From assembly GCA_000310025.1 (NCBI GenBank), contig FN649736.1, positions 1,393,231 through 1,437,052 on the forward strand: a stretch of DNA of 43,822 nt. The letters run 5' to 3'. The notes under the pieces are model-generated. The model had not been told where the DNA came from. It made no database searches and worked only from the letters and a program-made list of their open reading frames with translations. The stretch is from Ectocarpus siliculosus. Taxonomy: Eukaryota; Sar; Phaeophyceae; Ectocarpales; Ectocarpaceae. A program made the position numbers and the translations under genes. Shown here one piece after another: positions 16,529-40,100 of this stretch (positions are counted from its first letter, which is position 1; the number at the start of each line of letters is the position of its first letter).

Positions 16529-19500
16529 TCACCGACCCGACCGGTTGGCCTGGTCGACCCTCCCGCCGCGGCTACCGCTTTGTCTACCCGCTCCCCACGG
16601 CGGCGAGGATCGACGGTCCTGATCCTTTGCGAGGGACATGAAGTGATTTCGGTTGTCCACGGTAAGCTCCTTCTCGACCACCATGCTCTCCAGCGTCACG
16701 GAGAATCGAACCTGTGATTGTTAAAAACCGTTGCGCATTCAAGGGGGAGCGATTTCTCAGAACGAAAGGATTCCACACACAGACAAGCAGTAGGTAGCAT
16801 TCAACACAGGAGCGATCGCATGTACAACAAAGCCATTTGTATCGCTCGCCTCGCTATCCAAAACCAAGACGTAAACCACACCGTCACAGCTTTGCCAAAC
16901 ACGCCGCCCATCGCGGCTGCACAGCAGTGGGCGGCACACAATTCAGCCTTCTTGCCGTCGCTCTGCCTTTTCTCGACTTTTTGAAAGCTACTGCTGTCTT
17001 CTTTCCCGGGATTTTTTTTTTCTCTACTTACCGTGTCTTGTCAACAACTCGCCGCATCTCCCAGCACAACTACCGCACCTAGTCAACTACACGAGCCCAG
17101 ATAGTGTTGCAGAGACAACAGCGCCAGCTGATTGCTACTCTACTCTTTTACGCTAGGGCCCTGCTCCCCCGAGGTGCCAACACCAAGTGCGCCAACGCCT
17201 ACGATTATAGAGGTTCACGCCGTCGGTTTCCCCCTTCCCCGAACCTCACCGTCCCGATCAGGATCTCGGCGCCGTTGGACAGGGGATACGGCCTGCTCTC
17301 CGTGTGCATCCCGCTCAGCCGGAACCAGGTCCCGTTCGTAGACGGCTGCAAGTCAAGGAAAGAAACGGGGCGTAGACACATGCATGTATGGGTAACTCAA
17401 GGTGTTGGGATTGGCAGCGAAGGCCCTTGCACTACATACCTTTGCTTCCACATGAGGATTTAGCGGTCACCGTCGCAAACGTCAAGCTCTCTTGTCCGTT
17501 GCGTGCGTGCATTACACCAAATCATTGCATACCCAGGGATTGCGGCGGTTTTCTTCGCCCCGCGATAAAATGTGTCGTTCATCTCAACACATGCGTGTAC
17601 AGCAGTACGTTTGCATATTATGTCACACCCCCTGGACCAATTTTCGAAGCTCGATATCTCGGCAGGAAAAGCAGTGACGGTGCCGAAAATGGCGGGAGGC
17701 GTTGGAACCGTCCCGTCAAGAGCTTTCCGAAAACGTATACCTCAATTTCGGCATCCTCTTCGTCGTGGAGTAATCGAGCTTTGAAAATCGGTCCAGGGAG
17801 TGTGGTATGCATATCTTAATGCAACCTACGGGTACATCCACACGTGTTGCAACAGGACACTTTTTTCCCGGCGTGCAGCCACGAAGCTTCTCTCGTTGGA
17901 AGGAGGGGCCGCACAACGAGGACAACCAACCGCAACAGGCTCGACCCACCTTGGTCGGGGTGCCGTCCATGATGTGCAAGAAGTCGCCTTCCTCGTCGTA
18001 CACGATCCTCGCGTGCTCCCCCGATATGGAGGCGTCTATCCCCATCACGGTCCCGCCAGACTCGTGGGAGAAGGCGATGGTGTTGGTCTGCCGCCGCCCG
18101 AGGGTGGCCCCTTCTCTACCCACGAAGAAACGGCTTCCCTGTTGGTGGGTAGAATGGCGTAATGCGTGGAGAGAGACCAGAGGCGCCAGACGGTGCGCGC
18201 GCGGGATTATTCAAGGCTGAGTGGGAACTCTTCGAGGCTGAGCGTTGTCTTCTCCTTGAAGGGGAGGCAGGCGTGTTGCCTTTGGCAGCTCAGACGAGAA
18301 ATAACGCGTTTCTGCAAACAAATGGATACAGGGAACGGCTCAACACACATCCGTACTCTCGAACATGAGCTGTGGTCCGATCTCGCCTCCCTCGCGACAA
18401 GCCAACCCTTGGTGGTTCGTGACAGCTAGCGCCAGCTGCATCAGCATGCGCTAAAAACATCTCAAAATACCGCAGCCCTACACATCCAAGGGAGCTGGGA
18501 AAACGGGCTGCCTACATACCGACCCGCACAACAGCAGCGCCTGCACCCGCACAAAGGCTGCCCGTCGTTCCCGCACACAATACTAACGGGGAGGGGGGGG
18601 GGGGGGGGGCGACGCGTAATTGCTTGCCTGTATCGGGGTCCCTTCCGGCGCGAAACACTCCAAGCAGACTCTTCGGTGCCCCCGTGCAAGCTTAAGTCCG
18701 GCCTCGAATGACCTCTCGAGCCCCTCTAGCTCCTTCTCGTCGCCCGAGGCGCCTCCTTCTCCTTCTCCGTGCTGTGCCGAGCGCCAAACAAGGGCAGGCA
18801 AGACAAACGGTCGCGGGGGAGCCCCGGAACAACGAAGCCACTTAATATTAGCGAATCCTGACTTGGCAATAAACACTCTTGAGAATACCTTGGTTGAAGA
18901 AGGCCTCGTTAAAGGTGACAATCCTGGTCTTGTTAAATGATGTTGCTCAGCACCGCTCGCCAAGCTTAATTGCAGTAGAGAATGTTAATGGACCTGAAGA
19001 AGGATGATTATCATCTTTAGATATTACTTCTTCTACACAGGCGCCGTAGATGTTGCCCAGTCGAGCTCATTTTTGCTCTTGCGGGAACCCCCCCCCTCCC
19101 CCCCCCCGGGCAAATGAGCCACAGAAAGCATGTACATACGCTGGCAAACACACAAGAAGCCACAGCCTAGTCAGCGCCTTCGGCACAGAGCCTTCCCTCT
19201 CTCTCACCTTATCCTGCAGGGGGGTGTCCAAAACGCTTGCATCGTCCTCCCCGCCAGCGGCGTTCTCGTGCGGCAGCGGCGACCGGCTGCTGTCCTGCCT
19301 CACCCTGTGCTCCACGCTGTCCAGGAGCAAGCCGCCAGCGGGGCCATCCCCCGCAGACGAGACTCCGTCCGCCCCCGTTCCCGCCCCCCCGATCCTAAGC
19401 ACCGACAGCTCCTCCTCCACCTTCGACGACGACGACGACTTGGCTGACTGTGCGCTCGTGGGGCGCGCCCGCTCTCGCTGCCCGCCCCTGCCGCCGCTTT

Positions 19501-22500
19501 CCTCCTGGTCGGTCGTGGCGCCTTCCTTGACTCCCGCCGTGCCCCTGCTGCGCGCCGCCGCCGAAGCATTGTCGCCTGGTCTCGACGGTCTCGAACGCGA
19601 TGCGTCGTCGCCGCCCTTGTCCTCCGCGGCGATGGACGCACCATCGGCATCGACCGCCTTTACATCAACGTCCTCAGGGCACGCGTTTGTAATCTCCAGC
19701 TGAGGCGGTGTTCGGGAGTGCGTGGGCAAGGGCATGGGGTACGGGGGGTTCAAGATGAGGCGAAGGGAGCGGCGAGGTGCGGTGCTTGCAACGGGAGTCC
19801 ACGCGCCTCCGCTTGGCGGCGCGTTTCTAAAGCCGCAGTAGAGCAAAGACGCCTTCAACATCTGGCTTCGTGTATACGTGTCACCTAGTAGGGGTACAAT
19901 AAACGCCTCTTGCAGCACGGAACTTGAGGGTAACCTCTCAAAACATTTGCCGACTGCTTCCAAGCTAAGGTGCTTGGTGCGGGATTACCCCCTGCAGAGA
20001 AGAGCACGACCGACACACCTGGTGCTTCCCGAGCATGATCATCATGCTGGGATAAAGCGGAGTGGGCACGCCTGACGCAAGGCGAACGAACGTCCCGCCT
20101 GCACTCCCGAAGTCGCACAGCGAGAACTGCTTTTCCTGGAAGACGGGCGAAGTGGTGGGAGGGTGGACGGGATAGCAGAAATACGTCAAGACAGGCGCTG
20201 GGTGGGATATGGAGCCGGGCAACCGGAGCGAAAGCATTTGGACTCAACCACGACACATGCCCGTGTCGACTTGGCACAGATGCCACCTCACAGGCGACCC
20301 TGACAAACACGAAGCTCCATTCGACCCTGGTCTTCAGGGAGCAAAAAGGCCAATTGGACAACAACTGGGGTATAAACCTCCACCCGTCCGCGGTTAAATG
20401 CGAACTCATGGGTGGAGTGGCTCCAGCAAGTGGAAGCTATCATGGTCGCTGTCAGAAAATTCAAATCGCTTTGGCCTTTGCCCAGTTCCTCCAACCGACC
20501 TGACTCTAGAGATAAGGAAACGAAACTCTCTTGTCTATATAGTCGACTGCGACAACCCAAAATGTCGGGGGCGAGGTAGGTGAGTATCCAACACAGTCGT
20601 GGCAGCGAAGGCGGCGGTGTACATGAAAATCTACATGTTGAGGGGAGGGACCGGCGAAAACCCACCCTCGCTTTACGGACTCGCAAGCAAGCACTGGAGA
20701 AAGGTAGACGGGGGGCATCGGGGAGAGAAAACCTTCTGGGTGTGCTCCGGAAAAGCGTTACGAAACGTACTGATGGTGCCCGACATGAAGAGCACGCGGG
20801 CTGTTGCGGCTGCCCGCGACCATGAGAAAGCGAAACAGGCCTCGGCAGAGTGATCGGAGCTGCACGAGAAGCGGGCTACCACAGCTCTCGCTTGGAGGCG
20901 TCTGACCACCTAGCGAAAGCAGCAGCACCCAAGAGTGCCAAGAAGCACACGATGGAACACCGTCGCCTGGACCACAGGCCATGATGGTATGCATTCCGCT
21001 ACAACCTCGTTTCCTCGGCTGCGGCTGCTCCCGCCTGATGGCCAGACGCCTCCAGGCGAACTCAATTAACCTAACATACGATCTTTTTGCGGAGCCTATT
21101 TCGCGTTCTCCTGGTCACGAGCTGCCGGCTGCTTCGGGGTGGCGCTATTATAGTGGGTTGGGGGTTTGAAAGAATCCATGGAAAAAAGCCTACACCACAA
21201 CAGAGATGTTCGTCTTGGCGCATGCCCTGGCCAGGTGCATTTAACGCCATACACAACAGAGATCATGTCTGTCTTGGCGCATGCCCTAGCCATGTGCATT
21301 GTTCACCAGACGTGCCGGCGCGCACACACACCTCTTTGTCGAAGATGATGCCGAAGTGGCGCCTGCTGACGGTGGCATCCGAGAACTGCATGAAGTCCGC
21401 CCCAGCAAGCATAGCCGGCTGCTTGCGTCCACCCACACACCCGCGCTCGGTTACGCGAAAGGACTTGTCGTTCCAGTCCGAGTCCGTGGGGCCCAAGCAC
21501 TGCCAAAACAAGACAAAAAACGGACGACGACGGCAGCAGCAGCACCAGCGTGGCGCAAAATGTGATACTACTAATAGCGAGCAATAGAGCTTTGACTCGT
21601 TCGAAAACGCGAAGAGTTGGCTATATTTATGTATCTCGTGTTGATGAAGGGTTTATCTTTATCGAAGGAAAACCGCACGTTGTGCCAACATGCTGTGCCG
21701 GAGTTTATTCGAACTCTCAGATCCAGAAGACCTCACACACAACACGTGTGCGGGAAGCACGTTCCGTCTCTGCGGAGCATCGGTAACTCCAGGTGCTATC
21801 GGTCCGGACTATCCGCCCCAAAATTCGAACAGACGTGATACTCGGAAACAAACAAGAACCGAACAACATGACTCATACCCGAAGATATCACCCAGCCCCT
21901 AATCGTGGTTGAAAAAGGTCTAATCCTGGCGCACTTTGAATCATATCTGTGCTTCAAGTAGCCTGGATCTGAGGTATACACAAGTTGGGACTCTTGAAAG
22001 AAGAAAAGTCGGGCACGGACACTCCGCAAACAATTGGTGGTGCTGTGACTCTGACTCTCTGCAGATCGCCACCCACAATCAACCACATCCCAAACCACCG
22101 CTTGAGTCTACGGATGTGAAGCAAGAGAGGCGTTGCTTGCAGAGAAACCAGAGGCAGGCACCCTCAAACAACTCATCGTGATGATTTGTAAGTTCGGTGT
22201 CGAGCTATGGCGGGTCAAAAACTGGTCATTCTCGGAGAGGTGTTTAGGTCGGCCGGTCGAGCCCTCTCTCAACGGGAATAGCCGCCCTAAAACAGATTTA
22301 CCCAAGTATAGCTGGTCCATCGAATGCACAAATGCTTTTATGTACGAATATCTAGCCTTGCGTACCCGCAACCTAACTGGAGCTTTTCAATTCACTCGTA
22401 ATGAGGTGCCAAGAGTATGGCTGAAAAAGGGCGCCCTTCTTACGTTTCGAAGAACTCGTCCGGCTCATGAGACAAAAAACCCTTCTTCGGGTGGAACACC

Positions 22501-25500
22501 CCGCACTGCCGTGCTTATGATCCGCCAGGCTTCAAAATAAAGAGGCTGCCCACCCTATTGTATTTCCTATTTATTGAGTTTACCGCGGCCGCAAAACAAG
22601 ACAGAGGTGTAGAACGGTTGTAGCTGTTTTTGTTGTCGGTGGGATCGCAGCCGTTGGATTCGGCGAAATGGCGCGCAAATTTCTGAACCTCACCACTATG
22701 ATCAAGGGGTCATACCAAGTCACCACGCAAACAAACACCTTCTGCGCAGACGGTGCTCTCTTCAGTGCTCTCTCAAAGACTCCCGAAACATTATCCACAC
22801 ACGCACTCTTCTTTTGTCTTTAGCGGGGAAACGTGAGGCGGAGGGACCGTGCATCTGCAGCTAGTTTGTCGCACGAACGCGCACCTTGAGAACGAGAATC
22901 TGCTCCGTCACGAGCGCGAACCGGTACTCCCGGTTGCCCTCCTTTTCCCTACCCCTCTCCCGCCTCCCTCCTCCTCCTCCTTGCGCTCGGCTGCTCCCCC
23001 CGGGGCCGTCGCCTTCTTCATCGCTGTCCACCCGGTACACGTAGAGACCCTCGCCCCCTTCCGCTAGGAGGTCCTTGATCAGCCGCCGCAGATTCAGGTT
23101 GGGCACCAGCGACAGCTGCTCCATGGGCTGACCAGTCTGAGAGGAGGGACAAAAGAAAGAAAGGGAGTTAGGTAGAGGGTATTGAGAGAAGGAAAAAGAA
23201 AGAAGGGAGTGTCGTTTGAGATACGTAGAGGGTATTGAGAGAAGGAAAAACAAAGAAGGGATCGTCGTTGGAGTTGGGTGGGGAGGGCATTTGAGAGCAA
23301 GAGCCAGAAAGAAGGGATTGTCGTTTAAATTGAGTGGAGGGTATTGACCGCGACACGTCTTATTCCCCCGGTCGATGAGATTCAAGTGAGAGCCCCCCTT
23401 CCCCCGCCGCCCCCAACACTACCTGTGCCAAAAAATGCATGGGCATGAGCTGCAGTACCACGCCCGGCCGGTGCGCATCGCCAAAACAGCGCACAACTTA
23501 AAAGCTCGGTGAGTGGCAGAATATAACAAGTTGCTGAATTCAACTTTCATTTTGATGAAACCGAAAGGCACCACAGACATGTCACGGCGTCTCTCCAAAA
23601 CAATCCATGTCCAGCCAACGAGAGACGGCAGTAGACGAGAAAGGAGATCGCGGAAAGGACAGCAGAACGACCAAGAACAAAACCAGCCCTTCCACTTTGA
23701 ACGGGTGCTATAGCAGGGTAAGCCACGCTGTACCTTGACGACATTGCCGGCTACGGCCTATGTTCGTGCTTCCTCCCTGCTGTGTCGTGGAGACCATACC
23801 CCCCTTTGGTTGGGTTGGTTACTGATGACTTACTCCCTCCCCCCGCCCCTCAGAACGTTCCGCCCCCGCCGGGTTCTCCAAGGTTACCGTAAGATTGCGA
23901 GTCATCGCACAGCAGTCCGGAGTTATCGCCCCCCCGTGCGACAAAAAGCAAACAGCTGAGTTGCATAATTCGATTTTTGCACAGGGTCCGGAGTGATCGC
24001 ACAGGGGCGCGATGACTCACTACCTAGGGTCGTTGAATGCCAACGGTTTCGGAGAAACTTTTACTTCTGTCAACCAACCATGCCGTTGCTGGCGCGTTAG
24101 CTCCGCTGTACTTCAACACATGGCATCGTTGCAGACCACATGTTGAGGTATGAGGGAGGTAAAAAACAACGGATTCCCATTGATACTTCAGTTGAATCGA
24201 CTATGCATAGATCACGTAGAACAGCAGCAGCCACATCACAAGCTAAAACAACTACCCCCGACATGGTTGTCAAGCGACTGCCGTGTGTCGCGTGTGCGTG
24301 CATTCGGCGGCGGGGAATTTTGTTTCTCCGTGGTCAGGATTCCTTATTTGGTCGTGTATTATTTCGCCTCATATGCATATTGCTTGTGTGCGTTCTCAAA
24401 TGGCATAAACAGCGCCGACTGGTTGTGACTGATGTGCGTGTGTGTACGTTGCGCAAATACTTATTTGAGTACCGCACATACCCGAGTTATCGCACAGACG
24501 GGGGTGTGCGGTAAATATCAAGACCAAATGACTTCAATTAATCTCCGCATACAGTAGGGTCACGAAGGAGCTGATTTATGCAAATGTTAATGTGTTCGTT
24601 TGTGAATTCCCCCCCTATCCTCCTGCGGATGCGTGTTTTGTTTCTATATCGAGACGGGTAGATAGAACACAGCCATTTGGACTAACCGTTCGCTGAGCAC
24701 GCCACATGGTGTGAGGTGAGGTTGGAGAAGAATGACAAACACTGATGGACTGCAAAAATAACACATGGCTGTCGGGAGAAAAACAGAGGGTCCGGGGGGC
24801 GGCAGAATCTTAGTCCTCGTGATAGTCTATCGTGGGAGCAGCAACTCTCAAGGCAGTACTTTTGTACCAAGGTGATGCCTCCGTAATGCCCATCATCTTC
24901 ACAGCAGTTCACAGCAGTTCCTCACGTCGCAAACCTAGACTGCTTGAGCCATGTATTTCAGTACCAGTAAACTCGAAAGTGGTTTATTGCTGGACAAACA
25001 ACCGCCGGGTCGCTGGGTGCGTAAATTGCACTCTCGCCAATTCAAAAGAGCCGCGACGCAAGGTCCTCTCATCAATGATCACACCAAACAACAAGCTTCA
25101 CTTGACTTCACCGAACGAAAAAAAAAACAAGCCGGTTTGGGCACAGGATGACACAAAAACACAAAACGTCATTTCATCGGTCAGCCGGTTGGTGCGGTCG
25201 ATGCTAATGACAAAAAAAAACACATGAACGAGCCGGCTCGCATTTATGCCACCAACCACAAGGCAAAATACACGTCGGGTCGGGTCCCAATAGGACAAAG
25301 TTGAGGACGCCACCGAAAGCCACGGCGGTCACGAAACAAAAATCAACATGCTGATTCAGGGGCCGATGCGTCCGTGGGGGCAACAGCCGAACACACCCGC
25401 AAACGGCCAAATATAGGCCGTGTCGACTACATACAATAACCGTTCGCTCCAACACACTCACCCATCGACTTGCTGTCTGTGGTCTACCTATATGATATGC

Positions 25501-25843
25501 ACGATGGTAGCATATACACTTCGAGAGGTCATCTATAACAGTGAGCGATTGTAGTTTGTAAAAGAACAAAACAGGGTCAACGGCCACGTGTGTATTAGAA
25601 AGCAGATGAACAGCAATTAAGTGCACAGCCGAAAACACACAGCAGCATGACGTAAATAGCAAATAGTAGATGAAGATCAACCACATTTCCTGGGCATACC
25701 TTGGGAGAGGTGTCATGGTTCCTCAGCCACATTTCGATGGCCTCCCTGTCGTAGGTGTGGCCGTCCGCAGCGATGACCGGGTCTCGCATGAGCTCCCGGG
25801 TGATGGGACAGGAGAACTCATCCCGCAGGGCGGACCCGCGAAC
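16529..25843 (-). CDS. U-box / FHA / FHA protein, putative E3 ubiquitin ligase
   Basis: Exons (minus strand): 25843-25700, 23136-22885, 21499-21332, 20135-20019, 19699-19208, 18771-18628, 18138-17950, 17345-17250, 16711-16529. All nine are multiples of three, so every intron is phase 0; they encode 594 residues plus an unfound N terminus. Residues 1-75 are a U-box ([41 protein letters not shown]); U-boxes recruit ubiquitin-charged E2 enzymes. An acidic Gly/Arg-rich linker follows. FHA1 starts at [14 protein letters not shown] and carries [15 protein letters not shown] and GSAGGTF. A ~160-residue Ser/Glu-rich disordered linker separates it from FHA2: [57 protein letters not shown] domains bind phosphothreonine peptides, so FHA2, with all key residues, likely selects phosphorylated targets. 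FHA1 lacks the usual Asn. The intron after 18628 has a GC donor. Confidence 0.85.
21197..21300. repeat. Two-copy tandem repeat in intron
   Basis: Two similar units, 21197-21241 and 21253-21300, start at ACAACAGAGAT and run through GTCTTGGCGCATGCCCT to GTGCATT, about 56 bp apart. They lie just inside the intron following the first FHA1 exon of the U-box/FHA gene. Confidence 0.8.
23154..23349. repeat. ~54-bp minisatellite in intron
   Basis: About 3.3 purine-rich units built on GTAGAGGGTATTGAGAGAAG, GGAAAAA, AAAGAAGGGA and GTCGTTTGA, with unit starts near 23173, 23226, 23278 and 23333. On the gene strand it is a pyrimidine-rich tract at the 3' end of the 2.56-kb intron, directly before the acceptor at 23137, so it may serve as an extended polypyrimidine tract. 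Confidence 0.85.
23884..24515. repeat. Cluster of GAGTNATCGC motifs with terminal hairpin, possible MITE-like element
   Basis: Four copies of GAGT(C/T/G)ATCGC occur at 23899, 23920, 23991 and 24484. An inverted copy (GCGATGACTC) at 24009-24018 makes a palindromic arrangement with the first. At the right end TACCGCACA (24470-24478) and TGTGCGGTA (24505-24513) form a perfect 9-bp inverted repeat with a further CCCG/CGGG pairing, enclosing the fourth motif. The segment lies in the long U-box gene intron. A non-autonomous transposon is possible, but no target-site duplication was identified. Confidence 0.5.
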
Positions 25844-28800
25844 CTTTGCCACCAGTAAATAGACACAGCAGTATGGGTTTAAATGTTCACATGAACGAAT
25901 CAAACCAAATAGACCGAAAGGCCAACGTTAATGGAGGAAAGAGGAATATGTTTCACTTGGCGCTTCACCGCCACAAAACCAATACCATGGATTACGGAAA
26001 AATAAATACACACACAGGAAGACTACCCATTCGATTGTACCAGCAGGATGTTTGCTGCCGGGAGAGAATATTCAGTGTAGCGGAGTAACAACTCTCGTTG
26101 GCTTTTAGCAGCTGTTCAGTCTGTGACATCAGGAGACAACCACCTCCAAAATGTGCAAGGCGCACTTTGCTGTGATGGAGAAAGACGGACATCGGTGGGA
26201 GGTGGGAGGCAGCGCCCGGTTCGCCGGTCGGGCATTGAAAACAAATACTCGGAGTAGCAAAGGGACGCGAGGGTGCATGTGCACATGGTTGAGTATCATA
26301 TGCATTTGGGAGGCGCATAACCTGGTGCTTGACCCCAAACAGACATAATCAAGCGGTAGGGCCTTATTTATGGTCGAAGAGTCCAACAGACAACACATCA
26401 ACACGATCAATTCCGAAGCAACATTTCCCCCAGTCAGACGCCACTCGTAAACTCGTACAACTGTAGTGCCTGGGCGGACGGTGGACGCGCCGCTGTTTTG
26501 TTTTTGCGGGCCAGGCAGAAGGGGGGCGTGGTGACGACACCTCACCTGCCTTGGAACCAACGCAATCACGCATATCTTTTTATTTCGGCGAGGATTGTAT
26601 GCCACAACTCACTTGGTTGCTTCCCTACCACCGCCCCGAAAAAGAAAAAGAACACCAGTCTCCACAGGCAGGCTTTGGCTCCAAGCATGTCTACCACACC
26701 AAGACAAGCAAATATAATCCCTACCATTCGTTATATGGGCGGAGAGCGGCATCTTTGCCGTTCGACCACACGTGCTGAGGAACAACAGACCAGCGCGGCC
26801 GCCGTTTATCGGTACTGGTATGTACTTCATACGTCCAAACGCAGTTACGTTAAAAAAAAAAAGTGGCCGCCCGACATGGAAATGGGACAAGGGTTTTCGC
26901 CTTTTGGTATATTTTCCTCCAACCTCCAAAAGGAGCAGCCGGACAGAAAGAGTCGATTGACGTGACGGAGTAGGCACAAATGCCGGTGTACGAAGCTGCA
27001 GCGGTAGCACAGGCGCTTGAACAAGCACCAGAGGAGGAGAAAAGAGTTGAGCGAACTACTGCTGTAGACTACAAATACACTAGGGCCGGGAACCGTCCTG
27101 CTGGGAGAAATATTCGATTCTACACGTTCATTTTGCATAGGAGGCGAAATGAGGATGTGGGATGGGCGATACGTGTTAGGAGACGGAGCGTGCCTGAGGC
27201 CCAAGCCAAGCAGCAGGACAGCCCATGTGTGTTGCATAAGTTTTGTGGTGCATCACCCTGAAGCCAGGCACAGAAATGGAAGACATTGCCAGCTGTAAAG
27301 GGGAGAGGAACGGAGGATGCGCCCTCTATTGTCCCTCTTCCAAAGAGCCAAAATAGATGCCGCGAGAGAGATAGACAGGCACCGACAGCACAGCGCTGGC
27401 GTCGTTCACCAAAGAAACATGGAACACCAAGGCCGAATTTTCGCCACCCCTTCCCTCGGCAATGCTTCCCATCTAGCTCTAGGATCTCCTCTTACCAACA
27501 GAGGCCCGTTGAGCATGGCGTCTCCCGTCTGTTCCCACTCTCCCCAGCTGACGCTCCCCGCCTAAAACGACAGGAGGAGGGCGTAACTTTTCCCACCCAA
27601 CTTTGTCAGAGCAGTAGACAGAGAGGGAAGCGTTTCACGCGCGCGAGCTCACGCGATCGCTGTACTTCTCCCCGAGCGTTCCACAGCGGTAGGGCTCACT
27701 CCTTAAGTCCCGACGTTGACGCGATTTGCTTCACCTGGCGTTGCGCTGAGCTGTGATCTCCTACCCGGGTAGCACCAAGAGGACCAAGCTCAAGCGATGC
27801 GGCGCGCGCTATCGTGCCCTGCCCCCCTGGACCCTACTTTCTGTATTTTTTTGTCCCACGGGGGGTATCTTCTGCCGACCCCCTGTCCTTTGGCTGGCTT
27901 GTTGGCCGTTCATGTCGTGGTACCCTTGCTCTTCCAAAGCGAGAGAGAGATACGCAGCCATATGTTGATTAAATTCCAGGGACCACACACCATGAGGTCT
28001 TGGCAAGGAGTCTGCTATTGAGTGTTCGTATGATTTCATCGCAGGCGAAGTTGAAGCCTTTCGGTGGCCAAACAAGATATTTTCAAAAATTTCCAAAAGA
28101 AACACCCACCGCTGCTGTGTTCGTTCGTGTTCAAACAAAGAACCTCTGCTCTAGACTCCACCAGAAGTATGTGGCACAAGAAACATTTTACTTTTTACGT
28201 GTCCTCGAATAAATACTCGACGTAAATGTAGGCATGCAAACGTAGCCCCTCTGGTGTATTTTTCGCATAGGCAAGGAGCGCAATGTTGAGCCAATCGCGT
28301 CTCGTTTTCGACCTTGCCTCAGAGCGTAACAAGGGCCGGGAGCGTGGACAAGAGATAACGCTGGGTTCCATATATTTCTATGCTACACGGTTCAGTAAAC
28401 ATTTTCGGCGATTCAAAACCAAGAGTCACTCCCCCTGCCGCGATGATGTGCTCCAATCTAATTTTGGAGGTGACAGGACAACTTACTTGCAAAAGCAAAA
28501 TCCAATACATATGTCAGAGACAGCCATTGATTGAGAGAGGTGGCGTCTACACATTGCTCAGCTGGGAAAGTCATTCCTTTCGCCGGAATCCTTCATATGG
28601 TGGCAACCTCGTGCCCCCCAACCACAGCTTCATCATCAGAAATATTGCTCCGAGATGCATCTTGGGAGCCACGGGGCGCTAGAAAGAGGGCAGCCCGCCT
28701 TGATTACTCTGATGTTCGATTCTGGTAGCCATCTCTTTACCCTTTCCCTGCGGTCAAAGGATACTACAACAACATGGGAAATGCCCTCAATATTTCCTAG

Positions 28801-29095: not shown

Positions 29096-32005
29096 TCAGA
29101 GTGCTCTTAGCTCCGGCCATTTGGTGTCCAAATCTTCCCGGTCCAAAGAATCATCTGGGTCCGCGGGAGTCCACAGCACCTCTACATCCAACACGTTTTC
29201 TCCCCGCCCTTCCGCGGCCTCGTCCCCTAGCCATTCCAGGAGGGTCAGCGCGGACTGCCTGCTTCGTTGGTTGGTTGCGCATCGCACACAAAACAGAAGA
29301 CGGCGGTGCATGGGTTGGTCGTTGCTGCGGCACGGCGATGCAACGCGCCAAGCACGTGCTGGAAGTTCACGCATCAATCCCGCCAAGCAAGATGACACGA
29401 GCCTCAAACCGCGCTACATACCTGCGCAGGGGCGTGCCGGCAAGGCCAGCCGCAAGAGCCGGCGTTCTCGTGCAAGTCTACTCCGACCGAAACCACCTCG
29501 GACTCAACAAGGCCCTCCTTTCTCCATTCGCCAACTATATCGGCGAAGGCCTCCAGCCTTCAGGTGAGAAATGGGATATTCCGAACGTGATTGCCCAAAC
29601 AAACACAACCACGTCCGCAAATACCACCACCGCGACGCAGCAAAAGGTGGACCTAGGGCCGTGATGAAATCACACAGCAGTTGTCATCTTCACCGCGCTC
29701 CAAGAAAACCACAAAAACTACAACCCATCCTACAAAATATGTAGCATAGTAACCGGTTATGTGAAAGAAGTTGCAATGTGGTCAGGAACTGGCACATCGT
29801 AGCAGTTCTGTGACGTGCATCTTCTGATATATATGTGACATCTTCTGCCAAAAACGAACTGCTTGGGCATCTTCCAAGTACATGCATGCATATGCATAGA
29901 TACCAAACACGAACTGTTTTTCCCTCGCACCTGTTCACCACCGAGAACTCCACGCCTCTGTCATCGTCGCGATCGCGGCTATCCCGCGTGAACCAGCCGC
30001 CTCTTCGCGGCTCAGCCCGAGGAGGGGTGCTGTTCAAACCCGACCACGCCACGATCAGCGTCGCTACCGCGTACGTTCCGCTCTTCTGGGCGCTGAACCC
30101 CCCCCATGAAGGCGCGGTGCTGCTGCTGAACCCTCGGTCGGGGGTGTTAGACACGGTCTCCCGCTCCCACTTTGATCGCTCGCGCATGGCGGCTCGGTTG
30201 AAGTCGCGCTTTGCCCTGGACACGGGGGAGGACTTCTTCCCTCTGCTGTTCGAACGGCCTGGGGGGCGGGTGTGACGGCGGGGCGAAATATTTCACCACC
30301 CGACCTGGACTTGCGTTGTTTACCGTGGGGCCATCGACGAGACTTAAGGCCTAGGATGGTCGCTACGTCATGTTATACGGGCTGGAAATAGCGCAATCGG
30401 AGCGCATCCTTTCTTGCCAGCAGCGTACAGCAGGATGATCCGGCAAGAGTGCGAACTTGAAGGGCTACCTATTCGAACTAGCAATCATTCGGCAGCACTC
30501 ACACGGGGGGCGAAACAATGCACAAATCTAGCAAACAACGCTGTTGTTGTATGTGCGACTGACCTTCCGAGGCGTACATTTTGACGCTTCCAGTGCCCCC
30601 TAGCCAATCTCTGCCCGATCGAAGCAGCGTCAGGCACACCTGTGCGCATACGGGTAAGTTTGATGCGCGTTAAAGTTACGGTAAACTCTGGGCTTACTTA
30701 CAACACGAGACGCCGGCGAAGGGGCCGCGAGCAGGAGTTGCAGTAGTCGCACAGTTAGAAACCCCACGCGATGACACACAAACATCTTCGTCAACGCACA
30801 CATGCAGGTACAGGGCGGTATTGTCGCCGGGTTGGATGTGCTGGAAAACAAAGGTACATTGCCCGCCGTTGCCTACTCAGCAAGAACCGCGCAAGATGGA
30901 AAGAGAACACGAGTTCGAACCCGTTCAATGGCTCGAAATGACCATCGACATCTCTCGTCAAGCTTCATTCTTAGGACCGGCGTACTGCGCGCTGCTCTGC
31001 CTGCCTCACCTCGTTGATAAGGGTGGATAACCCTCTCGGGCTGTTAACATCGGCCGTCTGCGAGAGCTTGTCCAGCGTAGCCAACACGTCCCCCTGTCCC
31101 CCCTGGCGGTCGCAATACAAACCCAACTGTAGCGTCGTCACCACGGCCGTTTGCGAGCTCCCCCCCCGGCCAGAACGCGGCGGCAGCGGCGCGGAGGGAC
31201 GCTGGCCGGAACCTTCTTCGTCTACAAAGCGTTTTCTGTTGTAGCGCTGAACGGCCGCCACGGCGGCGCTAACCCCGCCGATCATGGCGACGTCGCCGGG
31301 AGTGATGGAGGTGGAAGGCGCATCACCATCGTACGGGTTGAAGCGAGCGCGGGTTGATCGCCTCCCTCCTCGTCCACCATCAAACCTGATGTGAAACCGG
31401 CTTCCCTCGGAGCCGTAGATGTCTCGGCCAGCCCTTGGCCGCTGGTATCGCCCTTGTTGCTGCTGCTGGGGCGGCTGGTACTGCTGTTGCTGCTGCATTG
31501 GAGGGGCACTTGGCGTGCGCTCCGCGGCGGCCGGGGCGGAGTAGCCTCCGCCACCTATTCTGCCTCCAGTCACAGCAGCAGCAGCAGCGAGGCTTCTTCC
31601 CGTCGCCACAGCAACCAGTAGAGGGGGAATCGCCAGCAAACGACGCCCACTTCGGCCATCTCCGCCGATCTCGTCGCCGATCGTCAACCCCGTTGTTCCT
31701 GCCGTACCGGTGCCGGCGTTTCGGTTGTCGACGGCGGTGCAGACATCACGTCCCACAACGCACGCTGTTGCATCTCCTGGTACATCTTTAGAACACCCTG
31801 CAGCACTCATGCGTTCGCCCCACACGCTTCTGCTTGCCGGCAGCTGTGATCGAGCAACGATCCCTCGGGAGCTGTACCTTTCATGTGTCGGCTGCTGCCC
31901 GCTTGTTCTAGAGGCAGGTGGTGCGGAAAATGCTATCCTGGGAACAAAGGCTAATGCCTCGACAACAAAGAGAGAAAAAAACATCGTTCTCCAGACCGAC
32001 ACCAT
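29096..32005 (-). CDS. Plastid-targeted DUF1517 protein
   Basis: Exons (minus strand): 32005-31010, 30639-30564, 30258-29931, 29258-29096; all junctions keep frame, giving 520 residues. The chosen ATG at 32005 gives a 22-residue signal peptide (hydrophobic core FFSLFVV) ending ALA/FVP. This matches the ASAFAP motif of heterokont plastid proteins with Phe at +1, and is followed by a Ser/Arg-rich transit peptide. ATGs at 32092, 32059 and 31984 are in frame too. After a Gln- and Gly-rich middle comes the DUF1517 domain: LQLGLYCDRQ, LSQTADVNSPRGL, a helix LTLLRSGRDWL, FNRAAMRERSKWERET, YAVATLIVA and the C-terminal VEVLWTPADPDDSL. DUF1517 proteins occur in cyanobacteria and plastids; the plant member FLAP1 modulates photoprotection under fluctuating light. 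Function here is inferred only from the family. Two hydrophobic stretches (about residues 120-145 and 225-240) may be membrane-associated. Divergent from CCT4. Confidence 0.87.
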
Positions 32006-34137
32006 CGGCAGCGGGGAAAGGTACCAACACCCTGGTGTGGCGGGTAGCGAGAGTCTGAGCATATATGTGAGAGCAGCCTGACCACAACGCACTGCTCCAC
32101 TACTGCTCCACTACACTAGCACTGCGGTGCGTGAAGTACCTAGGGGGACCGTGGTTACATTCGGGTATGTCGCATACCTCCAGTGTTTGTCTGCGTGCCC
32201 CGACCACTGCCCTCGGTGTCGGCTTGTGCCACCGGCTCGCTGCGCCACCAACAAGAAGCAACAATCCCACGCCCAACAACTGCAGCCCGCCAGCGACGAG
32301 GCAAGTATTCCAACCTCTGATATTGCTTGGTCGTGAAGTCGATGGCGTTATCTTAGATCTTGGGGTAGGCCCTGTCACCATCCGATGCTTTCGAATCTAG
32401 CAGAGCCAGACAGACGCCGTGCAGGCCGCAATCGTTGCCCGAGAGCGACCGGGATCTGCGCGCGAGAGAGACGGGGCATAAGCCCTGTCTGCCAACGGCA
32501 TCAACAGAATGTAGCACGATGAAATGCCTTCGCCACACCAGGACCACGCAATCGATATGTTGTTCTGTTGCAGCATAGCTATGCAAACAGAACAAAGCTC
32601 TCGTGTTTGAACGGTAAAGGACGCGTAGTTTGAAATTTGTCTGCAATTTAGAGGGAAACCTCTGAAGCTGGGTACACAATTTCGACCCACGCTAGCCGAG
32701 CCAGGGTCTTGATCGGGCATGAACCAGCGTGTAGCCCACCTTGCTCTGTGTCCTCGAGAGTTCCATAATCCCTGTTTGAATGCACTGCGGAAGGCGGATG
32801 ATTAATTGGAAGCCTGGCAATAGGCAATGGCCCACACAGCTGGAAGGTGTGTTGGTACAACAGTTGCTCTAGAACCCGGGTAATGTACGTGGTATTACCT
32901 ACCTTGGTTTACAGATCGTGCTGCGGCTATCCTACGACTGGCGCACACATCCAACATCCAATCAAACACGAGCTTGTTGTTTTGGTGTCAGACACACCCA
33001 TGTTTATGTCTCTCCCTCAAATCCCTCGTTGCGGTTGATACGCAGGTAAAACAATCAAGCAGGTCCAGGCAGCACCCACGCTAGGCGAAAATTGACTACT
33101 CCAACCAGCCTATCGCTCCCCGCGTTGGCTGTCAGCTGATCAGAGATGGCTGGACCGAACCAACGAAAAGGCGACACACACAGGGATAGCCAGAAGGAGA
33201 AGGTTAGCGATAAAGCAGTTTGTGTGGTCATGTACCACCCCGGCGTTTCTCGCACATCTTACAGGTTGTGTTCTTGTGTTCCCAGAGGGGGGGGGAAACG
33301 GGGGTTCCGTCCTACAGTAGCTCTGGTAGTCTCTCTGCCCGACCGGCGCTCATGAGTTGATTTCGGATTGCCTCCCGTTTCTCCAACGCAAGCAGCATGT
33401 GATCAAGAGGTCCTGTTGCGAAAGGGAGGGTATGTATGCCTGTTGGATACCGCAAATTGCTGCAGTCTGTATCAGCACGCCATGACCCGCAACGCAGTGC
33501 ACGAAACACCAGCCTCTACGTGGCACCAACAGCGGTATTGTGGATGATCGCCTCATCTAGGTCAGTGCCGAATGAATCAGGTGGCAATCTTACGTTCTGA
33601 GGTCTGTGTGGGTTGTGTAGTGAATGCGCCTGGGGGGCTGTTTCGGCAGAGCATCAGGAGACGAAGTAGCCTCTCGCACTGCTGTTAGCCATGCCGGCGG
33701 GAAGTGTGGTGATTGCCGTCAATAGGGGTGGACTCGTCTCTCCGCGATGCCACGGCCGTGATGAAAGGATAAGACTCGGGGGGGTTGCGAAAACCGATGG
33801 CGGACGGGAAACAGTACAATTTAGCAGGGAAACCGTTTGAAGACTCTTGAGGGTAGCCACCTCTCCCCGGTTACCCACACCAAGCAGCTGTGCAACAATA
33901 CTGGTACGTTGACTACGCGGCTCATGTACAGGGTGGAGCCTGCTCTGTCGTACTCGTCTCTCTGTGTGTCCTCGGGTACCCTCTTGGTTTCCGCGTACCC
34001 ATTTTACGTGCCGTTTCGCCTTTCGAAAAAAATGACCCACACATCCCGCTTTTCCATGCTCCGACCTTTGCTGCTGCTCCTCTCCCAACACGCGCCGCAA
34101 CACACACGTCGAAATGTCCATTCAATGTCTGTAATAG
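32006..34137. promoter_or_regulatory. Divergent intergenic region between DUF1517 gene and CCT4
   Basis: About 2.1 kb separates the start of the minus-strand DUF1517 gene from the first recognised exon of plus-strand CCT4, so it holds both promoters. It must also contain the short CCT4 initiator exon, expected to encode about 20-30 residues and to end in phase 0. An ATG at 33797 opens a short frame beginning MADGKQYN, and one at 33571 opens a ten-codon frame ending at GAG/GTCTGT. Neither is convincing. No TATA box or conserved element could be assigned, and no other gene was seen. Confidence 0.5.
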
Positions 34138-37100
34138 GATGTGCGCACTGCCAACATCCTCGCGGCAAAAGCGGTTGCGGACGCGATCCGAACCAGCCTG
34201 GGTCCGAGGGGAATGGACAAGATGATCCAGGGGGGCGACGGGGAGGTGGTTATCACGAACGATGGGGCCACTATCCTCGGGCAGATGCAGGTGCGTCTTT
34301 CCGCAACGTAAATCTAAGGTGGTACCTTTTGCCGTACAACATAAAATGGGTTTATGCCGCGAGTCTTGGGATTGCGTCCGTAGTGCCGTAATTGGTGAGT
34401 GACTCGCTGATAGGATGATGAGGCGGGCTCTCTAGTTTGGATACTTGTTGCGGGTTGTATGCAAAACCATCAGCCCGGGATCGCTTTCAGGAAAGCTCTG
34501 CATGGTTATACATTGTATCATTGCTGGAGCGTTCTATTAATAGTGTCAAACGCCACTTGCGTGTACAGCTCCAAGCACGATCGTCGACCCTGAGACCACA
34601 CTGGATGTTGGCTACATCATTTCTAGCTATTTTTCTAGAATAGCTGTGCTCGAAGCGAACGTTCCAAGCCTGTTAAAAGGTACGGTGTGCCCCGTGCGTT
34701 GAGTGTCGTCGCACAAGAATGCCGCCGAAGAGCCCCGACGTCGACACCCATGCAAAGAAAACAATATCCATGGTGGTAATCAAGTACTCCCATGACACCT
34801 TGAGCACGCAGTCACCATAAGAGGATTTTGCGTCCAGGATTTGTCTCCCACTCTCTCTCTGTCTGTGTATGTGTCGCTTTCCCCGCTTGCTGCAGGTGTT
34901 CCACCCCACCGCAAAAATGCTCGTGGAGCTCAGCAAGTCGCAGGACATCGAGGCCGGCGACGGCACGACGTCGGTGTGCGTCATCGCGGGGGCCCTGCTG
35001 AACGCCTGCACCGACCTGCTGGCGAAGGGCATCCACCCCATGGCCGTTGCCGAGTCCTTCCTGGCCGCTGCCGACAAGGCGGAGGAGATCTTGGAGGGCA
35101 TGTCCACGCCAGTTGACCTGGCGAACAGGTGCGTGCGTGCGTGCACACGGGTTTTGGCAAAGCGATTGAGTTTCGTGTGTGGCGCGTGTTGTGTGCTGCC
35201 GAAGAACGGAGCGGTCGGACGAGATATTAGACACTACAATCATACGGTGGAACATGTAGCAATAAATAGTATGGTACGAAGAAGTAAAGGTTTCGATGTA
35301 GCCACTACGTGGTATAATATACCATTACATCGAAGAGGTGCATTTGAACTCAGAGTACTCCAGTTACCCAAAGCACACCTTTCTTCCACTCTCGTTTGCA
35401 GCATTTCAGCAGTGGGTGCCGCCACGAGTCTGGCCCGTGTTTTTTCTGCAGTTGGAAAACGGTGTCGTATTTTACCCTCGATATTACCTCCAACGACAAA
35501 GAACACGAAAAATTCATACCAAGCACGTCTTCCAAGGCCCCGCGGGGGCGCCCCACGCATTGCACTGCAGTGTCCGTGGTTTGTGGCGCTGTCGAGGAGG
35601 GTCGGCCCAACCGTAGCGATACGGCCGGGCCTACGTTTCTCCTTTTCGTGTTGTCCGATTCGGGTCGTGCTGCCGGCGAGAGCTTGCGCGGGTCCCGAGG
35701 TTGACATGGAAAGGAGGGAGACTTCAGAAGCGTGCGATATTATCCGTAAAAAGCGCGGCGCTGTGTGTACAGTCCTGCTCCCCACCCCCTGAGCAAGTCC
35801 TGAAGATTCAGCCGCGACATTCGTAGAGCAGTGTTGACGTGTAGTTAGTTTTGTCGACCGTCGTTCCGAGCTGGAACGGGACGAATGGAAGAGAAGGCGT
35901 TTTGGAGAAGGCCGTCCCGACAACCGAGGCGAAGGGCTGACTTCAACCGATGACAGCACTCAGACGAGTGGCGGGGTAGTGATGGCCGTGAGAGACAAGA
36001 GCCCTTTCCAGTCACCTTCCGGGGAACTCTTAAGCATGATCGTTTTCGTGGACCATCATGTCGCGTCTGCACAAGTAGGCCTAGCGTGTTCTCCCCGCCT
36101 AGAGCTCGTCAAGCGTTGTATTCTCCTTCCGGTGGTTGGCTTTCGGCTATGAAATAGCCAAATGATGTCGGTGCATGAGCTCCTTGGCCCATGGGAAGGG
36201 TTTATCTCATATTAGTATAGACGGCAGTCCCGTGCTCCGTGGGCGAGAGGATATGGTTGCACGGTCAAAGGTGAAGCAAACTAACTGTCCTTGTTATTTT
36301 TGCCCCAGTCGAAATTATGTTGACTGCGTTCTATATTGGCGGCGTCGCCCCGCCGCCCTGTCGCGGCGGTCGCCTTACGGTTCCGATAATGAATCGCATC
36401 CGCGTTGCCCCCCCCCCCTCCAGGGAGACGCTTATCCAGGCGGTGGACACGTGCCTGTCGTCGAAGGTGGTGAGCCAAAACTGCGAGACCATCAGTCCCA
36501 TGGCCGTGGATGCCGTGCTTGGCATCATCGACCCTATCAACGCCACCAACGTCGACCTCAGGGATATCAAGGTAATTTACTCGGGGGGCGGAAGACGTCT
36601 GGCGGGATGGGTGTGGGTGGGTAGACAGACGAGGCTCCTGAGCGCCGCGAGCAGTGCGCAGCGGGGCATGTACGTTGGGGTGGCCTTGACACGGAAGGCG
36701 TGTGTAGGTTGACCGGTCGCCTTGTCTTCGACCTCGCGCCTCAACGTACATGTCGTTACTCGTTTTTCTTTTTTTTTTTGTGGAATCTCTACTTTGCGAC
36801 AAAGAAGGGGCCCTCTGCCCCTCGGCGTGGGTCATGTCATGAGTATGCGATGTGTTGGATTCTTCACAGCAAAGGGGAAGGTTCCAAATGTTCATCAGCG
36901 CTGGCCGGGATAAAAAATCACTCATGAGAGGTACAGCACTTGCTGTTTCAAAACCTTTTTGAAATCCAACCTTACAACTTCCTTGTGTTCCAACGACCTT
37001 GTGTGGGACTATGTAACTCTTCCGGTGTGTGTTGCGTCGTGTGCGTGGCAGATCTGCAAGCAGCTCGGAGGTACCATCGACGACAGCGAGCTGGTGCACG

Positions 37101-40100
37101 GGATGGTGTTCGAGAAGGGCGCCAAGAAGAGCGCTGGAGGTCCCACCACCATCGAGAACGCCAAGGTTGGTATATACGGCGTGCTCGACCCCTTTTCTCT
37201 ATTGCTTCATGACTCCGTTTTGGTTCCTCTTCATTCCCTCTTTGGAGTCTCATTGGCGCCACAAAGCCGGCCCCAGTTGTTGCGCCTTTTCCACGTGCCC
37301 GTTTTATGTTGTCGTGAGGGGTTTGCCCTTTTTTGTCACGGCTCACGAGCGTTCTCATGTGGACTTTGTAGAACCTTGTCGGGCTGACTGCCTATGAGTG
37401 GCTGGCTTCTCCTGCTGTTGCTCCGCGTGCTTCCTGTCCTGAACTGGTGCCGCTCATTCTCGCGTCGGATTCGAGTTCCAAGCAGAACGACCTCGGTTTT
37501 TCCGGAGCTACTGTGCGTAACGCGATCCTGTGCCGGTTTTTCTCTCGGTTTTCTTTTTGGTCCTGGCGTTGTGGGCCTGAAAAACAGGTGGGCCTGATCC
37601 AGTTCTGCCTCTCGGCGCCCAAGACGGACATGGAGAACAACGTGGTGGTGTCCGACTACGCCGCGATGGACCGTATCTTGAGAGAAGAGCGCAAGTACAT
37701 CCTTGGTCTCTGCAAGAAGGCGAGAGCGTGTTCCCTGGTCTCTCTTGTCACGGACCATTTCTGCTGTGGTTCTTGTTTTTCGTTCTAACCACACCTCAGG
37801 CGTTGACTGTCACCATTCTTGTTACTCTCCACGACCCCGGCCAACCCAACGATCCTTTTTGGTTGTGGGCTTTCTTCTCTTGGTATTGATATTCATGCTG
37901 CGCTTGGGCGTCGTCGCCTTGTTGTCTTTTTTTTTTTGTGTGTCGTCTTGTGCTTTGGCCTTGTGCAGATCAAGAAGGCCGGGTGCACCGTGCTCCTCGT
38001 GCAGAAGAGCATCCTCAGGGACGCGTACAACGACCTTTCCATACACTTCCTCGCCAAGGTGAGGGCAAGCGCACCGCTCTATGTTACAGTAGTACCCTGT
38101 GCTTTCGCTTCTTGGGCTGAACAGAGTCTGTGGTTAGTGTTGCCTACAAGCACTTTGTCTTCTTTTGGAGTATACTGTAGCCTAGACGGACGTGGAGGAA
38201 CGCATTTTACGTACGTGTATACACACAATCGTGTATTTATACTCAGGTATACAGCTGGCTGTTCTGGACGTTGCAGTTCACGGTGGAATTATCCGGTGAT
38301 AACGTTGTGGAGGAGTACCGCAACCGTAGTTGTATCGTTACGATGAGTCCGACCAGGTAGCAGTAGACTAGACTACATTACTAAGCAGTACACGCCAACG
38401 ATCAGGTTACCTACCGCGCCACATGCAGCTTGTGGGGCCCCGCGCCAGAGATTGCACAACCAGGTACAAGGCCTACGGTGGCTCTTGACTGCGATGACCC
38501 CTTTTCGTGGAATCCCCCTATGGCTGGACGAGATGAAGCAAATAGTCTTGCGCGGTTACACGCAGACGTCTGTCTCTACTGTCTTGATACCGCAATTGCG
38601 CCGACCAACCGCTCCCGTCGGGACCCTCTTTGTTGGTTTAGATGGGCATCATGGTGATCACCGATGTGGAGCGGAACGACATCGAGTTCATCTCCCGGAC
38701 ACTGGCGCTCAAGCCATGCGCTCACATCGACACCTTCAACGCGGACAAGCTCGGGTAGGTACATGAAGCGTTGTCGTTCGAACGACCAAGAAGACAAGCT
38801 GCGAACAGTGGTGTTTTGTTGGTGCATCTCGGCTGCTATTGTTGGGGCGTCTCTTTAGTCGGCCCTGTCGGTCGTTGCCGCTTCCCTTTATGGGACCCTC
38901 TCTCTGTTGTGCCACAGCACAAACTTGCTAGGATTTTACTCGGGTTGTGTCGGTATGCGAAGCGAATGCGCCCGCGCTTCTCTCAAGATTCGGCAGCAAA
39001 GCTTGGCCTGCTTCTTAAATCTTGTGTCGCCCGCCCTTGGCTTCTCCTAGAGGCCTGCCTGTACCTTCGGCATTGGTCCGGTGGTGGTAGCACAACTACG
39101 TTCTTAGCGTCCTCTACATATCGGTCCTCTTGATCCACCAATCTTTCATTCCGTGGCACAGTCAATAGTCTGCGGGGAAGGCTTGGGTGCTTACTGCCTG
39201 TGGCTCGTCAGACCACGCGCAACGCCGCAGAGCACCTCGCAGCAACACACTCCGTCTCTTGCTTCTCCGTCGGCAAGCCGCCACGTCCCTCGTTAGGTGG
39301 GGATGCCATCCATCGCTTGGTCATTTCGTTCGTCCAACTCCCACAGCTGGCCGCCCTCTCCCTCTCTCTTTCTTGGCCGTTTCGTTCTCACCGCCACAGG
39401 ACTGCGGACCTCGTGCAGGAGGTTTCGATGCCGGGCTCCGGCCACAAGGTGGGCCAGCCGAACCTGCTTCCTTTTTCGTTGTGTGGCTTTTTTTTTGTTT
39501 TTTCTAGATGTTCCCGTGCGCGACCGGGACTCCTTGAGCACGAATATTGTGGGCGAGGCAAAAGAGTGGTGGTGGCACGACGGTTGGTTGCTGTTGAGGG
39601 GTTTCTGCACGGGAGGGGACGGGAAAACACACAAAATTTTGTTGTACGCGCCGCCGCCAGGTCTTTGCTGCTCCGAGCATGGCCTCGGGAGTGACGAGCC
39701 GTCTGCGTGTAGCGCCTGCCGTCTGCAGTATGTAGTAGGCGTGTGCGTCCAGTGTGGTGTGTATGCCCGATGACGACGCGATGAGGTTCCGTCGTGATGA
39801 GGCAATCACTCATTCAGTCCGAAAAACGCCAACGGTCAAAGCGAGAAGACCTCATGTTCTTCCCGGCTTCGTTCTTCCGCGCATGCTCTGGTGCCGCCGC
39901 ATGCTTTTCTTTCATTTAGAAGCGACCGTGCTTAACGGGCTGACCAATGAAAAGACGTCGGCCTTACGGCGGGATTTGAAAAATTCGCGAAAACGGTGTC
40001 AAGTCAAAGGGGTCCTACCGGCCAGGCCAGGGGTACGCAGGAGTTGGAGTAGAGCAGCGTCCTGCTTCTGTGTGTTTTGGGTACGCCTTTGTTCTTCTCA

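Follow-up and report, generated by a model that had tools for sequence, protein, structure and literature searches.

A U-box followed by two FHA domains in one nine-exon gene of Ectocarpus siliculosus: a candidate phosphothreonine-reading ubiquitin ligase

Based on the analysis of a 43,822-nucleotide stretch of the Ectocarpus siliculosus genome (assembly GCA_000310025.1, contig FN649736.1, positions 1,393,231 to 1,437,052; hereafter the window), we suggest that a locus on its minus strand encodes one multidomain protein, probably a U-box ubiquitin ligase whose second FHA domain (FHA2) binds phosphothreonine on a substrate or partner. Along the protein the order is U-box, a first FHA domain (FHA1), a low-complexity linker of ~200 residues and FHA2; the intron map is largely common to a paralogue on contig C2 of the same genome, and there is constraint between the two copies. 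U-boxes recruit a charged ubiquitin-conjugating enzyme (E2) and FHA domains dock on phosphothreonine. In the model that we propose, the U-box would recruit a charged E2, FHA2 would dock on a phosphothreonine of the substrate or partner, and the flexible linker would let the ligase reach lysines near the docking site, while FHA1 would have a structural role or a different mode of binding. A kinase signal would thereby decide what the U-box ubiquitinates. This model also predicts that the exons are transcribed as one mRNA.

The nine exons were spliced into a single frame and the domains scored with the curated cut-offs of Pfam. The spliced frame comprises 594 residues, all nine exon lengths are multiples of three, all eight introns (319-2563 bp) are in phase 0, and retention of any one of them would lead to a stop. 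The U-box match extends over residues 8-73 with 68.3 bits against a cut-off of 21.4 (E-value, E, 6.7e-19). The residues of the U-box core, i.e. C-P-I, D-P-V, G-x-T-Y-D-R, W-L, P-N and L-I, are all present and are invariant between both copies. This domain aligns with solved U-boxes, the closest sequence match in the PDB being a plant U-box, that of U-box domain-containing protein 12 (E 4.9e-16), and the RING model zf-RING_UBOX stays below its cut-off on the window protein (18.1 versus 25.2), the ligase domain scoring as a U-box. By domain and core residues, the window protein is most likely a U-box E3 ubiquitin ligase, which would transfer ubiquitin in an E2-dependent manner. The Pfam FHA model matches two stretches with a whole-protein E of 2e-16, the best stretch being residues 451-533; tested alone, FHA1 (match at approximately residues 170-224) gives an E of 3.7e-7 and FHA2 an E of 3.3e-9. 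In FHA domains, the Gly-Arg, Ser and Asn residues are usually needed for phosphothreonine binding. FHA2 of the window keeps G453-R454, S478 and T505-N506, and it aligns with Rad53 FHA1 from S478 on.

An earlier note on this DNA had placed a U-box and two FHA domains in one nine-exon gene with phase-0 introns throughout and had remarked on the long linker before the second FHA domain. Pfam scores, intron phases and the colinear paralogue bear out the former, and the low-complexity linker, with the Pfam FHA matches ~225 residues apart, agrees with the latter. The tight junction that it saw between the U-box and FHA1 does not hold: the U-box ends at residue 73, the first FHA1 strand begins by eye at about residue 119 and the Pfam FHA1 match at about residue 170, leaving ~45 low-complexity residues by eye and nearly 100 to the Pfam match.

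The strongest support for one gene is the paralogue on contig C2. A search of the species' own genome (189 Mb, 492 contigs) with the spliced window protein gave 22 matches: nine at the window locus, nine colinear on C2 (3538519-3542929, plus strand, 42-77% identity) that cover exons 1-8 in order, and four elsewhere, namely one place that matches by the U-box alone at 45%, two weak matches on contig C204 and one match at chance level. On C2, exons 1-8 are all preceded by an AG and followed by a donor, and seven of the eight donors lie at the homologous codon. In exon 5, whose second half is broken on C2 by one stop and a frame change, the donor is therefore presumed to lie further upstream. Exon 9 shows only a weak match, which a frame change splits between two frames, and its acceptor was read by eye. 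Internal stops occur in four of the nine C2 blocks, by coordinates three times outside the exon borders and once in the exon 5 linker. One of these seven is a rare GC donor (gcaagcaa) after exon 6, common to both copies and giving a GC-AG intron at window position 18627 and at C2:3542006, conserved at a synonymous divergence (dS) of ~0.6. The last 13 residues of exon 2 are identical in the two copies, while the spacer preceding them differs; the end of exon 2 reads in phase into exon 3, and likewise exon 6 into exon 7. Colinearity, phase and shared splice sites together make a chance joining of exons unlikely. Over 362 codons (exons 1-4 and 6-8), the NG86 method gives a nonsynonymous divergence (dN) of 0.166 and a dS of 0.620, i.e. 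dN/dS ~0.27, with 59, 54 and 120 differences at the three codon positions. These data point to a real, duplicated and constrained U-box-FHA-FHA gene, and the reading as one gene appears well supported by the domain scores and by the constrained, colinear paralogue with most splice sites in common. In family scans of the genome, the U-box and FHA places were not adjacent; this result is weak, the scans having been run exon by exon, and the FHA scan says little about numbers because the window's own FHA exons are not among its matches.

Several points weigh against our reading. On a fragment with the U-box, the MIZ-type zinc-finger model zf-Nse also passes its cut-off (28.5 versus 27), far behind the U-box model (73.3 bits). 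PDB sequence matches of the FHA domains are weak, with a GarA-type FHA at an E of 0.02 as the best for FHA1 and, for FHA2, an FHA1 chain at 0.53 and Rad53 at 0.92, behind an unrelated reductase at 0.018. The Pfam FHA matches are confined to exons 3-4 and 7-8, and the first FHA strands in exons 2 and 6 are a judgement by eye, aided by the invariance of the end of exon 2. Linker exon 5, left out of the sum above, is weakly constrained (dN 0.35, dS 0.57), and a pairwise dN/dS does not tell which of two copies is constrained. The family Asn is missing from FHA1, in which GSAGGT replaces the family S-x-N-G-T in both copies. Finally, the frame is open upstream to 25927 and no ATG stands ahead of the U-box in it, the first Met being M19 inside the U-box. 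An AG lies directly before 25843, and a 5' exon should therefore exist between 25844 and 29098, i.e. up to the end of a DUF1517 gene near 29099; among 138 ATG-to-donor pieces in this interval, of which the best 25 were examined, there was no good first coding exon. Without an ATG and without a good first exon, a 5' truncation or a lack of expression is conceivable for the window copy.

The described gene thus lacks its 5' end, and the full protein may extend further N-terminally. On a donor score scale taken from 19 known donors (range 7.3-12.7), two of the 138 pieces reach 7.5, a bare ATG codon and an 11-codon piece, both marginal. The same gap could be explained if the window copy were a decapitated duplicate that was copied without its promoter and start codon and no longer yields a protein, with the C2 copy or an unseen parent as the working gene. 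The lack of a start fits this explanation, as does a 45-60 bp piece of a dispersed repeat (25974-26046, minus strand) ~130-200 bp upstream of exon 1, and the window contains no significant match to the NB-ARC-like or TPR exons that precede the paralogue on C2, its weak matches other than the U-box exon having an E of at least 0.39. However, all nine window exons are open and bordered by AG and GT/GC, and the damage is found in C2 instead, with the stop and frame change in exon 5, the frame change in exon 9 and a Gly for R454; a copy long dead at a dS of ~0.6 would be expected to hold stops. We consider a dead window copy unlikely. The dispersed repeat itself has at least 43 further matches (40 of 601 candidates scored), and eight copies compared by eye lose their similarity at roughly one common point, which resembles a mobile-element boundary.

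The residues of the two FHA domains bear on another explanation, in which these domains are phosphate-independent scaffolds for dimerisation or for self-inhibition through the linker and the E3 is not controlled by phosphorylation. FHA1 keeps G156-R157 and S177, but in both copies the Asn of its motif is replaced by Gly; in the C2 copy of FHA2, position 454 is a Gly followed by an Arg, and Lys replaces T505, so that the site is not kept by both copies. By contrast, FHA2 of the window keeps the Arg, the Ser and the Thr-Asn, and we regard purely scaffolding FHA domains as doubtful. By this residue test, which FHA1 fails, only FHA2 appears to have what is usually required for phosphothreonine binding, and FHA1 probably serves a structural role or a non-canonical interaction. 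The proposal of the earlier note, a phospho-reading E3, accordingly needs to be narrowed: it is the most reasonable interpretation for FHA2, which keeps the binding residues, but not for FHA1, which is without the motif Asn in both copies. That a neighbouring U-box gene and one or two FHA genes were wrongly joined and then duplicated together is very improbable: introns 1-3 of the window gene are long (1.2-2.6 kb) and no single exon carries two Pfam domains, but on C2 the blocks for exons 1-8 keep their order within 4.4 kb, their introns measuring 261-748 bp and their splice sites matching, and exon 2, with its invariant end, and exon 6 read in phase into exons 3 and 7.

On C2, the paralogue stands behind a gene of a different kind. 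C2:3532071-3543510 holds an NB-ARC-like gene with phase-0 exons of one TPR each and then, after 442 bp and on the same strand, the paralogous U-box-FHA-FHA exons. The NB-ARC-like gene has the P-loop GDSGSGKT and scores 20.2 bits with the NB-ARC model (21 bits in another run), below the cut-off of 23.5. Its phase-0 TPR exons, T1-T5, were set by eye and give an E of 4.4e-11 with TPR_12 when joined and of 0.029 at best singly. T2 and T5 are 126 bp each; a phase-0 TPR exon of 126 bp is reportedly described for brown algal genes of this kind in one study. T5 ends at C2:3538073 with a donor, the U-box exon starts 442 bp further at C2:3538516, and an ATG stands exactly at the start of the U-box exon. 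Tentatively, the C2 paralogue may be read as one NB-ARC-TPR-U-box-FHA-FHA gene, in which shuffling would have brought the U-box-FHA-FHA exon block into a candidate immune receptor, at the intron that follows one of its TPR exons; the window gene would then be a related stand-alone or source copy. Alternatively, C2 may hold two closely spaced genes, with the U-box gene starting at the ATG at the exon start.

The 442-bp stretch bears on this choice. A tandem second NB-ARC-TPR copy lies at C2:3551994-3558691 (50-84% identity by piece to the first), in which T5 is followed by further TPR-like exons set by eye, in which Pfam found no family; the search with the window protein gave no U-box match behind it. 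The first 60 bp of the 442-bp stretch align with the beginning of the tandem copy's T5 intron at a score of 127, which none of 2338 other segments reaches (maximum 42) and which exceeds the scores for the starts of four other introns compared (33, 6, -19 and 16). The last 60 bp match less well, with a score of 8 versus 36, 24, 32 and 42 for the ends of these four introns. There is a resemblance between the last 300 bp and what precedes the U-box exon in the window, with a score of 104, reached by 2/2148 window segments and by none of 300 dinucleotide shuffles. This global alignment depends on the length taken, with 65/2162 segments scoring as high at 200 bp, 3/2154 at 250, 2/2148 at 300, 12/2140 at 350, 2/2132 at 400 and 7/2126 at 442 bp; over 60 or 100 bp, the sequences ahead of the two U-box exons give no signal of resemblance. 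By local alignment, 4/556 segments score as high for the part nearest the exon, 12/556 for the whole 442 bp and 410/556 for the part on the T5 side. The stretch therefore looks chimeric, with a start like the T5 intron of the tandem copy and an end that more weakly resembles the sequence before the window U-box exon. Our preferred reading is that recombination inside an intron put the U-box-FHA-FHA block behind the TPR exons; the unusually conserved start could have another cause, e.g. an untranslated or regulatory sequence common to both. The later exons of the tandem copy have no above-chance match downstream of the C2 U-box gene.

Two related candidates in the window were rejected. A former position of the window U-box exon behind a TPR exon T5 was not borne out for T5 itself, as 128/556 segments score as high; and between 25500 and 33000 on the minus strand, the best scores for T1-T5 as TPR-like 5' exons (27-38) are about those of the opposite strand (33-37). 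C2:3551994-3562583 contains, in addition, an acidic open frame whose end resembles a ubiquitin-interacting motif by eye, with no Pfam match.

Table 1. Exons of the U-box-FHA-FHA gene and a weak candidate first exon (positions in the window)
Feature	Position	Strand	Content
Candidate short first coding exon	27496..27516	-	weak; 7 codons, ATG to gtaaga donor, phase 0; by eye; not among the best 25 of 138 pieces
Exon 1 of nine	25700..25843	-	residues 1-48, first two thirds of U-box; 73% identity to C2 exon; donor position same in C2
Exon 2	22885..23136	-	residues 49-132, U-box end (49-73), low-complexity spacer, first FHA1 strand by eye
Exon 3	21332..21499	-	residues 133-188, FHA1 core with G156-R157 and S177-R178-R179-H180; Pfam FHA1 match starts here
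Exon 4	20019..20135	-	residues 189-227, FHA1 GSAGGTFVR loop, Gly in place of family Asn
Exon 5	19208..19699	-	residues 228-391, last part of FHA1 by eye, then low-complexity linker
Exon 6	18628..18771	-	residues 392-439, linker and first FHA2 strand by eye; GC donor after
Exon 7	17950..18138	-	residues 440-502, FHA2 core with G453-R454 and S478-G-E-H481
Exon 8	17250..17345	-	residues 503-534, FHA2 STNGTW loop
Exon 9	16529..16711	-	residues 535-594, last FHA2 strand by eye, basic tail, stop codon

The next gene upstream, on the same strand, is the DUF1517 gene (29099-32110, minus strand), whose last exon has an E of 1.8e-7 and whose first exon, at 0.07, is below the cut-off. Exons of a TCP-1/cpn60 chaperonin gene follow on the plus strand (34821-42373), two of them above the cut-off (E 7.3e-22 and 1.4e-9) and one below it (6.8e-4).

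The earlier note did not recognise a U-box with tandem FHA domains from characterised proteins, and our searches agree: no protein with U-box and FHA was found in the accessible portions of the open-access literature, subscription papers and proteome databases lying outside that search. For Chlamydomonas, Arabidopsis and rice, FHA is not among the U-box partner domains named, and it does not occur in the main text (PMC4378952). The available parts of other papers contain RING/FHA in Plasmodium (PMC2408969), FHA among the domains of RING E3s in T. cruzi (PMC5976635), a domain-clan table (PMC8409312) and a U-box with macro and PARP domains in Dictyostelium (PMC2964712); in a further paper, a figure legend names FHA and U-box among the domains of a Dictyostelium protein set, in which they are not shown to share one protein (PMC5087659). 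Among prokaryote genomes, 47 matches to a pattern taken from the U-box only were obtained and two were confirmed, with 42-43% identity over the U-box part alone. Among viral contigs, none of 12 pattern matches for FHA2 and of 15 for the two-row alignment (U-box pattern) was confirmed.

Both constituents of the C2 arrangement have counterparts, i.e. NB-TPR genes with exon shuffling, and also ROCO genes, in brown algae (PMC11378527), and NLR-U-box fusions tabulated for plants (PMC4759884). The C2 paralogue resembles these systems in standing behind an NB-ARC-like gene with phase-0 TPR exons, whereas no FHA pair is reported for either of them in the available parts of these sources and the window copy is without an NB-ARC or TPR match. 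If the C2 copy were fused to the NB-ARC-TPR gene, it would encode a STAND/NLR-like receptor with a phospho-reading ubiquitin ligase built in, and the locus would be a concrete and testable example of exon shuffling that adds an output in ubiquitin signalling to a candidate receptor. To our knowledge, little is known about the immune signalling of brown algae.

The U-box also links the window gene to CHIP/STUB1, in which TPR repeats precede a U-box. The C2 TPR exons upstream of the U-box would give the same TPR-U-box order if fused; however, no TPR was found in the window gene, and the C2 TPRs are the one-per-exon repeats of an NB-ARC-like gene. With the plant-type U-box E3 ligases, the window protein shares a full-length U-box of the same type, while its partners are FHA domains. 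The closest functional parallels would be the FHA-RING ubiquitin ligases CHFR, RNF8 and fungal Dma1/Dma2, in which the FHA domain comes first and the ligase domain second. Like these ligases, the window protein combines in a single chain an FHA reader with an E2-recruiting domain from the RING/U-box superfamily. By contrast, the window gene has a U-box for the RING, its ligase domain is N-terminal rather than C-terminal, and it has two FHA domains and a long linker. With no RING above the cut-off and the order U-box, FHA1, FHA2, it is not a member of the FHA-RING class. Thus, FHA-RING E3s are already known, and what appears to be new is a putative FHA-containing E3 with a U-box in place of the RING. 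FHA readers are known to steer RING ligases, and a U-box counterpart would suggest that the reading of phosphothreonine became coupled to ubiquitin transfer on more than one occasion, in this case through another ligase domain and with the domains in reverse order.

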